Source of the DNA: Spinactinospora alkalitolerans
GTDB lineage: Bacteria > Actinomycetota > Actinomycetes > Streptosporangiales > Streptosporangiaceae
Assembly: GCF_013408795.1 (NCBI RefSeq)
Contig: NZ_JACCCC010000001.1
Location: 1,054,001 to 1,118,000, forward strand
Length of the DNA stretch: 64,000 nt
Direction: 5' to 3'
Position numbers and translations under genes: made by a program. The notes beneath the pieces were generated by a model. The model was not told where the DNA came from and did no database searches. It saw only the letters and a program-made list of their open reading frames with translations. Each line of letters begins with the position of its first letter. The stretch's first letter is position 1. This document shows positions 51 to 1,847 of the stretch, piece by piece.

Positions 51-67
51 GTCCCACTAAGTGAGAC
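51..67. promoter_or_regulatory. Palindromic operator candidate upstream of cimA
   Basis: The 17-bp sequence GTCCCACTAAGTGAGAC is an imperfect palindrome (arms GTCCCACT and AGTGAGAC around a central A). It lies 65 bp before the leader peptide of cimA. It shares the pattern GTCnCnCTAnnTGnnA with the sequence just upstream of ndgR and leuC at 11119-11136. I infer a shared branched-chain amino acid regulator site, NdgR being the obvious candidate. Only the sequence similarity is seen; binding is not shown. Confidence 0.45.
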
Positions 68-131
68 AAATGGCGTGTGAGCTCATGCTTTTCGCGGAGT
101 GTGTGGCACACTTGGTTTCGTGCCGTCTCAG

Positions 132-161
132 ATGATCATTATCGTGAGGCGTGCCGGCTGA
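132..161 (+). CDS. Ile-rich leader peptide of the cimA attenuator
   Basis: A nine-codon reading frame, ATG ATC ATT ATC GTG AGG CGT GCC GGC TGA (MIIIVRRAG), has three consecutive isoleucine codons followed by valine. No Shine-Dalgarno sequence precedes it, so it may be translated leaderless. Its last codons (149-158, GCGTGCCGGC) can pair with 174-183 (GCCGGCGCGC), leaving the stop codon in the loop. A classical terminator follows at 185-214. Citramalate synthase feeds isoleucine synthesis, so a ribosome stalling at Ile codons fits classical transcription attenuation. The coding layout is seen; the regulatory mechanism is inferred. Confidence 0.7.
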   Translation: MIIIVRRAG

Positions 162-184
162 CGATCGGACCTTGCCGGCGCGCC

Positions 185-214
185 GACCTCTCGTGTCCAC
201 GAGGGGTCTTTTTT
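185..214 (+). terminator. Rho-independent terminator (attenuator) before cimA
   Basis: GACCTCTCGTG (185-195) pairs with CACGAGGGGTC (198-208) with one G-U pair, and six T residues follow (209-214). It lies between the Ile-rich leader peptide and the cimA start, which is the position of an attenuator rather than of an end-of-gene terminator. Confidence 0.75.
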
Positions 215-266
215 GTTGGCCGAACCAGATGACGAGCAGGAAAAACCACTCCCGGGAGTTCCACGC

Positions 267-1847
267 ATGCTGGACGACAGTTTCCACGTTTTCGACACGA
301 CCCTGCGCGATGGCGCTCAGCGCGAGGGCGTCAACCTCACCGTCGCCGACAAGCTGGCGATCGCGAAGCTGCTCGACGAGTTCGGCGTGGGCTTCATCGA
401 GGGCGGTTGGCCAGGAGCCAACCCCAAGGACACGGAATTCTTCCAGCGGGCTCAAACAGAGCTGACGCTGGAACACGCGCAGCTCACCGCGTTCGGCGCG
501 ACCCGCCGGGCCGGTGTGCGGGCCGCCGACGACCCTCAGGTGGCCGCCCTGCGCGAATCCGGTGCGCCGGTCGTCACCCTTGTCGCCAAGAGTGACGACC
601 GGCACGTCGAACTGGCCCTGCGAACCACGCTCCAGGAGAACCTGGAGATGATCGCCGACACCGTGTCCCACCTGCGCGACAGCGGCCGGCGGGTGTTCCT
701 GGACTGCGAGCACTTCTTCGACGGCTACCGGCACAACCCCGACTACGCGCTGAGCGTCGTGCGCACCGCCGCCGAGGCCGGCGCCGCGGCGGTCGTCCTG
801 TGCGACACCAACGGCGGCATGCTGCCCGCCGACATCGCCCGCGTCGTCACCGAGGTCGGCGAGCGCACCGGCGCCCGCCTCGGTATCCACGCCCAGGACG
901 ACACCGGCTGCGCCGTCGCCAACACGCTGGCCGCCGTCGAGGCCGGCGCCACCCACGTGCAGTGCACCGCCAACGGCTACGGCGAGCGCGTCGGCAACGC
1001 CAACCTGTTCTCCGTCGTTCCGGCGCTGGTGCTCAAGCACGGACGCGAGGTGCTGCCCGAGGGGCGGCTGCGGGAGATGACCCGCGTCTCCCAGGCCATC
1101 GCCGAAATCGTCAACATCGCCCCGGCCACCCACCAGCCCTATGTCGGCACCTCGGCCTTCGCGCACAAGGCCGGGCTGCACGCGTCGGCGATCAAGGTCG
1201 ACCCGGACCTCTACCAGCACACCGACCCGGCCCTGGTCGGCAACGACATGCGGATGCTGGTCTCGGACATGGCCGGGCGGGCCTCCATCGAGCTCAAGGC
1301 CAAGGAGCTGGGTTTCGACCTGGGCGGCGACCGCGAACTCCTCGGCAGGGTCGTGGACCGGGTCAAGTCCATGGAGCTCGCCGGCTACAGCTTCGAGGCC
1401 GCCGACGCGTCGCTGGAGCTGCTGCTGCGCGAGGAGCTGGGGCGGCCCGTGCGCTACTTCGAGGTGGAGTCGTGGCGGACGCTGGTCGAGCGGCGCGCCG
1501 ACGGCACCACGATGAGCGAGGCCACCGTCAAGCTGCACGTCAAGGGCGAGCGGGTGATCGCCACGGGCGAGGGCAACGGCCCCGTCAACGCGCTGGACCG
1601 CGCGCTGCGCTCGGCGATGGAGGGCGTCTACACCGCCCTGGCCGATGTGGAGCTCTCCGACTACAAGGTGCGCATCCTCGAAGGCACCTCCGGAACCGAC
1701 GCCGTCACCCGTGTCCTGGTCGGCTCCACCGACGGCCACGGCGGGTGGACCACGGTCGGCGTCGGCGAGAACGTCATCGACGCCTCCTGGATCGCGCTGG
1801 AGCAGGCGGTCACCTACGGCCTGCTGCGCCAGGGGTACGAGCAGTGA
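267..1847 (+). CDS. cimA: (R)-citramalate synthase
   Basis: A cytosolic enzyme of the HMG-CoA-lyase-like/LeuA superfamily that condenses pyruvate with acetyl-CoA to citramalate, the threonine-independent entry into isoleucine synthesis. The protein is 526 aa. The DTTLRDG active-site motif is at residues 10-16, a TIM barrel follows, HAQDDTGCAVAN supplies metal-ligand histidines, and the C-terminal third is a LeuA-type allosteric dimer domain. I chose ATG 267, preceded by GGGAG, because an in-frame start at 213 would lie inside the attenuator terminator. 2-isopropylmalate or homocitrate synthase are related alternatives, but the wording matches the actinobacterial CimA group. A leader-peptide attenuator and a palindrome upstream suggest control by branched-chain amino acid supply. 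Confidence 0.9.
   Translation: MLDDSFHVFDTTLRDGAQREGVNLTVADKLAIAKLLDEFGVGFIEGGWPGANPKDTEFFQRAQTELTLEHAQLTAFGATRRAGVRAADDPQVAALRESGAPVVTLVAKSDDRHVELALRTTLQENLEMIADTVSHLRDSGRRVFLDCEHFFDGYRHNPDYALSVVRTAAEAGAAAVVLCDTNGGMLPADIARVVTEVGERTGARLGIHAQDDTGCAVANTLAAVEAGATHVQCTANGYGERVGNANLFSVVPALVLKHGREVLPEGRLREMTRVSQAIAEIVNIAPATHQPYVGTSAFAHKAGLHASAIKVDPDLYQHTDPALVGNDMRMLVSDMAGRASIELKAKELGFDLGGDRELLGRVVDRVKSMELAGYSFEAADASLELLLREELGRPVRYFEVESWRTLVERRADGTTMSEATVKLHVKGERVIATGEGNGPVNALDRALRSAMEGVYTALADVELSDYKVRILEGTSGTDAVTRVLVGSTDGHGGWTTVGVGENVIDASWIALEQAVTYGLLRQGYEQ

Follow-up and report, generated by a model that had tools for sequence, protein, structure and literature searches.

The region in front of cimA, the gene for citramalate synthase, raises the question of whether a short translated leader ties expression of this gene to the charging of isoleucyl-tRNA. 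In the window, which is the whole 64,000-nucleotide stretch of Spinactinospora alkalitolerans DNA analyzed here, cimA is preceded by 266 nt, its ATG lying at position 267. By our own reading of the ORFs, the gene order is ilvB-ilvN-ilvC-serA-leuB-ilvE-cimA, with ilvB about 8.5 kb upstream of cimA in the same cluster. No protein of the genome reached the cut-off of the threonine dehydratase models TIGR01124 and TIGR01127, and because these models stayed below cut-off, the citramalate route may carry much of the isoleucine flux, making cimA a possible main source of 2-ketobutyrate; this is suggestive only, and homologues of the threonine dehydratase fold do occur in the genome. We propose, with considerable confidence, that the cimA leader is a ribosome-mediated transcription attenuator that ties cimA expression to the level of charged isoleucyl-tRNA. 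The features concerned are the following.

52..66, no strand assigned: palindromic box TCCCACTAAGTGAGA, a candidate operator common to the ilvB promoter, found by pattern search
104..112, + strand: extended −10 promoter element TGG-CACACT; TGTGG and CAnACT hardly vary in the alignments
120..161, + strand: leader ORF MPSQMIIIVRRAG, GTG start, stop TGA at 159–161; found in 57/57 homologues
135..143, + strand: isoleucine codons ATC-ATT-ATC; the ATT at 138–140 invariant (57/57 leaders)
148..158, + strand: switch hairpin arm a, from the end of AGG to GGC (codons RRAG), 11 bp with 174–184
174..184, + strand: switch hairpin arm b, 11 bp with 148–158, adjoining the terminator
185..214, + strand: intrinsic terminator, stem 185–194/199–208, loop 195–198, T6 at 209–214
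254..258, + strand: cimA Shine-Dalgarno sequence GGGAG, read directly and kept in relatives
267..1847, + strand: cimA, citramalate synthase (TIGR00977, E 2.5e-195, 649.8 bits, cut-off 450)

The original prediction described a nine-codon ORF with three isoleucine codons plus valine, a hairpin spanning its stop codon, and a T-tailed terminator just before cimA. Most of this is present as described: the run ATC-ATT-ATC-GTG occupies 135–146, the hairpin formed by arms 148–158 and 174–184 crosses the TGA at 159–161, and the terminator (185–208 plus T6 at 209–214) stops 52 nt short of the cimA ATG. The isoleucine run and its reading frame were real; the start assigned to ATG132 was rejected, as relatives read GTG, GCG, GTT or CTG there and the ATG is confined to the source genome and a few relatives. 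The true start is GTG120, which gives 13 codons. Across 57 aligned leaders this position was ATG (30) or GTG (27), and in 57/57 the start codon was in phase 0 with the isoleucine codons and followed by an in-frame stop; the leaders L185 and L187 carried a 3-nt deletion that kept the frame. The −10 hexamer lies at 107–112, and the spacing from −10 to start codon was 6–7 nt in near relatives and Streptomyces and 7–10 nt in part of the family. Because GTG120 is located only 7 nt past the conserved extended −10, the leader transcript is probably leaderless; several S. lividans leader peptides are leaderless by RNA-seq (PMC8079986). The conserved −10 also argues against a transcription start after 214. 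As judged from the alignments, the peptide has 13 codons and the whole feature, promoter element to terminator, spans about 104–214 instead of 132–214.

The codons themselves were conserved. Ile-Ile was encoded in all 57 cimA leaders, one of which has Ile-Thr after Ile-Ile, and one isoleucine codon was ATT in every leader, a codon that makes up 0.9% of the 460 isoleucine codons in the long ORFs of the window. Beyond the isoleucine pair the peptide varied, as in MFYGLLIIGRRAG, VLSFAMIIGSRRAGPQ, and VTSSARIIGS.

The secondary structure was conserved as well. Folding of positions 120–214 gave −45.3 kcal/mol (z = −3.66), a value equalled by 0/200 shuffles, and the terminator reads GACCTCTCGT-GTCC-ACGAGGGGTC followed by T6. 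For the covariation test we used a MAFFT alignment of the 57 cimA leaders made without fitting to the structure. Both helices taken together had 97.8% of cells paired; in the a:b helix the figure was 96.7%, and 5 of the 10 pairs counted had changed on both sides; in the terminator helix it was 98.9%, with both-side changes in 3 pairs. There were thus 8 pairs with both-side changes compared to 3.8 expected in shuffles, and the covariation score was 0.197 versus 0.112 in shuffles and was reached by 0/500, all of these counts being inflated by relatedness of the sequences. When the helix registers were slid, pairing dropped to 34–56%. Compensations occurred in separate clades, with GCGUGC:GCACGC in Yinghuangia and GCACGC:GCGUGC in Streptacidiphilus, and in the terminator CUCAC:GUGAG replaced CUCGU:ACGAG in many family members. 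The distance from the 10-bp core of arm b to the terminator was exactly 1 nt in 57/57 leaders; the loop between a and b ranged from 7 to 57 nt. Some Nocardiopsis-type leaders upstream of cimA (L024, L027, and L030) carried an insertion of 25–30 nt in that loop, which looks capable of forming a hairpin itself and left the terminator junction unchanged. None of the Rfam families was matched by the leader at gathering score.

To follow the leader beyond these alignments we used a covariance model, R1, trained on 40 cimA leaders with the source-genome leader among them, so that independent evidence comes from family genomes on which it was not trained and from the leaders of other genes. R1 matched 231 of 251 genomes from the family of the source genome, and 63 of 68 genera were represented among them; cimA itself was found at E ≤ 1e-150 in 238 of the 251. 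Among the listed family matches that were compared with cimA coordinates, all lay directly upstream of the gene. Likewise, R1 matched 80/80 named cimA loci, including those of Nocardiopsis, Thermobifida, Streptomonospora, Streptomyces, Yinghuangia, and Streptacidiphilus. Conservation of the isoleucine codons and the terminator, on which the original prediction depended, was upheld, both family-wide and among genomes of the Streptomyces type. A phylum sample comprised 396 genomes, of which 285 carried cimA; the class of the source genome contributed 16 of these, 15 of them with the leader, and R1 found no cimA leaders outside the class. Genome G464 was the sole cimA-bearing genome of the class that gave no leader match. 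In a rough scan of the regions upstream of 30 more distant cimA genes, the start was located in 21 and no convincing isoleucine leader was seen.

Matches of R1 not at cimA nearly all preceded branched-chain amino acid (BCAA) or leuS genes; two others, L169 and L172, had no obvious BCAA gene downstream and were set aside as probable false positives. R1 also matched the ilvB leader of the source genome at 23.8 bits. That leader (L118, 860–966) encodes VQSNFLILVLGRRAAG; a GCGCGC hairpin comes after it, flush with a terminator that has the same TTTTTTGTT tail. The layout is that of cimA, and the cimA and ilvB attenuators of this genome look related. Across the phylum R1 recovered 11 fetched ilvB leaders, one leuA leader (MSQNLLLT), and one leuS leader (VRTGLLLTEPR), the leuA and leuS labels resting on our reading of the downstream protein; for ilvB leaders of other genomes the E values were between 8.7e-7 and 0.009 per genome. 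The codons matched the pathway in each case, with Ile-Ile at cimA, LLL at leuA and at leuS, and LVLI, LVVI or ILVL at ilvB, where the leaders were rich in rare codons ending in A or T (GTA, CTT, ATT). In one LVVI-type ilvB leader from another genome of the class (L230), GCGCGUUGGUG pairs with CACCAGCGCGC, and this hairpin, read by eye, stands about 2 nt before the terminator region in the same layout. By eye, the stems were about 4–5 nt apart in the distant ilvB leaders L167, L170, and L171, and abutment is thus not universal.

To see how a translating ribosome might act on these structures, we masked ribosome footprints of two sizes and then folded the 57 leaders. When the A site was at the ATT or one codon earlier, a:b had a mean probability of 0.69–0.96; one codon after the ATT this was 0.18–0.37, the helix being partly blocked, and at the stop codon 0.00–0.03. 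A stall at the second isoleucine codon would leave arm a partly covered, a point against the attenuator reading. The terminator had a mean probability of about 0.95 in every ribosome state, in equilibrium folding. In this model ribosome position switches a:b on and off, and a:b is predicted not to compete with the terminator for pairing. An exhaustive helix scan of the 57 leaders for a helix competing with the terminator found only a:b and the terminator itself to be well conserved, and a base-paired antiterminator of the classical kind, no part of the original prediction and sought here by masked folding, in transcripts of partial length, and in the scan of all helices, was rejected when nothing conserved appeared. 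Mutual exclusion by base pairing is unsupported because there was no conserved competing helix and the terminator formed in all ribosome states.

We propose the following sequence of events. Transcription would start at or within a few bases of GTG120, as the promoter spacing suggests, and the leader would be translated at once. With ample charged tRNA-Ile, the ribosome would reach the stop codon at 159–161 and cover arm a, preventing a:b, and the terminator at 185–214 would then halt transcription before cimA. When isoleucine is scarce, the ribosome would presumably stall with the rare ATT in its A site and leave arm a free, so that the a:b hairpin could form right against the terminator and transcription would read through into cimA. 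The antiterminating role of a:b is assigned by analogy with the M. tuberculosis ilvB1 leader, where its authors position an antiterminator that a ribosome at the stop codon hides and a ribosome stalled at LVVI releases (PMC13236596). As to how a:b might act, we suggest a steric effect: the stems are 0–1 nt apart, and the a:b duplex could not enter the RNA exit channel of RNA polymerase, so that the terminator stem would not be fully closed while RNA polymerase is on the U-tract. Exclusion by contact in the exit channel is what we infer from this geometry. Its extension to the cimA, ilvB, leuA, and leuS leaders of Actinobacteria, as a common attenuator with a translation-gated hairpin 0–1 nt from the terminator and blocking by exit-channel contact without alternative pairing, is tentative, and we regard it as possible rather than probable.

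Control of the promoter may add to this. A 19-nt pattern with at most one mismatch occurred at two sites in the 6.68-Mb genome, one preceding ilvB and the other cimA. The palindrome, TCTCR-N5-YGAGA(CAAA), was seen at 52–70 of the window and at 792–810 of L118, before ilvB. With at most one mismatch it was present in 27 of 37 near relatives versus 7 of 740 in shuffles, and it stands about 50 nt upstream of the cimA promoter element, at exactly 50 nt in nearly all of the carriers shown. It is likely the operator, predicted from these sequence patterns, of a regulator common to ilvB and cimA.

The explanations that compete with a translation-gated hairpin differ in what they ask of the leader. 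An attenuator of the E. coli type would use a transient base-paired antiterminator, in which arm b or the a–b loop pairs with the terminator arms and wins kinetically. The M. tuberculosis ilvB1 leader has been described as of the base-paired antiterminator type (PMC13236596), and weak candidate pairings do exist here, of the loop GGACC with GGGGTC and of GGCGYG with CGTGTC; however, the best competing pairings were complete in 26% and 42% of the 57 leaders, and transcripts of partial length gave no stable b:c helix, which makes this version unlikely. It is less likely still that the terminator is constitutive or controlled by a protein, with the ORF kept for some other reason and leader translation not the sensor. 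The box common to ilvB and cimA suggests that a transcription factor acts too, and in S. coelicolor regulation was unaffected when codons of the ilvB leader peptide were changed, according to what PMC1262725 relays of Craster 1999. On the other hand, changing LVVI to AAAA in the M. tuberculosis ilvB1 leader, which was tested experimentally, ended induction (PMC13236596). We favor translation as the sensor because the invariant rare ATT, the conservation of start and phase, and the match of codons to pathway are hard to explain otherwise.

Translational attenuation, in which the leader would gate the cimA Shine-Dalgarno sequence and not termination, has a parallel in mycobacterial cysteine leaders; it is known for leaderless cysteine leaders in Actinobacteria (Canestrari 2020). 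At cimA, however, leader and gene are separated by a conserved U-tract terminator that shows compensatory changes, and GGGAG at 254–258 is in neither conserved helix, leaving this reading very improbable. We give almost no credence to a conserved nonregulatory small RNA or microprotein that precedes cimA by chance: a separate short transcript that stops near 214 would be expected in any event, but the peptide diverges beyond the isoleucine pair, and the positions of the R1 matches, directly upstream of cimA in the family matches compared and elsewhere nearly all before BCAA or leuS genes, speak against chance. The translation-gated attenuator responding to tRNA-Ile, as originally predicted for this leader, is supported by conservation, covariation, and the match of codons to pathway. 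If it operates as proposed, direct tRNA-Ile control of the enzyme that opens the citramalate route to isoleucine would extend over much of the Actinomycetes, Streptomyces among them, for which the supply of natural-product precursors is of practical interest. Invariant codons for isoleucine only would make this leader a clean sensor, and its unvarying hairpin-terminator junction makes a long-noted gap testable, namely, actinobacterial antitermination that lacks a visible antiterminator.

The original prediction knew of no described case for cimA, and in the open-access literature we likewise found no report of a cimA or citramalate synthase leader-peptide attenuator; one could exist in older or paywalled work. 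Seliverstov 2005 deals with trp, cys, ilvB, leuA, leuS, and ileS and gives other pathways as being without conserved structures, and cimA is absent from the eight leader peptides in an S. lividans RNA-seq table (PMC8079986), an absence that also weighs against the attenuator reading. Like the cimA leader, the attenuators of E. coli trp, leu, and ilv combine end-product codons with coupled translation and an intrinsic terminator; they differ in their 2:3 base-paired antiterminator, which is not conserved at cimA, where the switch hairpin adjoins the terminator instead. The leuA and leuS leaders (LeuL1/LeuL2) have the layout of the cimA leader with leucine codons in place of isoleucine, whereas the LEU element published for leuA is a pseudoknot with no obvious terminator (PMC1262725, PMC8079986), unlike the cimA leader. 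The closest likeness is to the ilvB attenuators (Seliverstov 2005; S. lividans IlvL, MRTRILVLGKRVG; M. tuberculosis ilvB1, LVVI), which also have a short ORF, branched-chain codons in forms ending in A or T, a hairpin in which the end of the ORF pairs with an arm farther downstream, and a terminator close by, in many cases with the TTTTTTGTT tail. Transcripts of the ilvB type are often leaderless, as is probable at cimA. They mix leucine, valine, and isoleucine codons, whereas the invariant regulatory codons at cimA are for isoleucine only. With its ORF of pathway codons, its hairpin at the ORF end, its terminator, and its similarity to ilvB leaders, the cimA leader is best read as belonging to the actinobacterial branched-chain leader-peptide attenuators of the ilvB type and not to the E. 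coli type.
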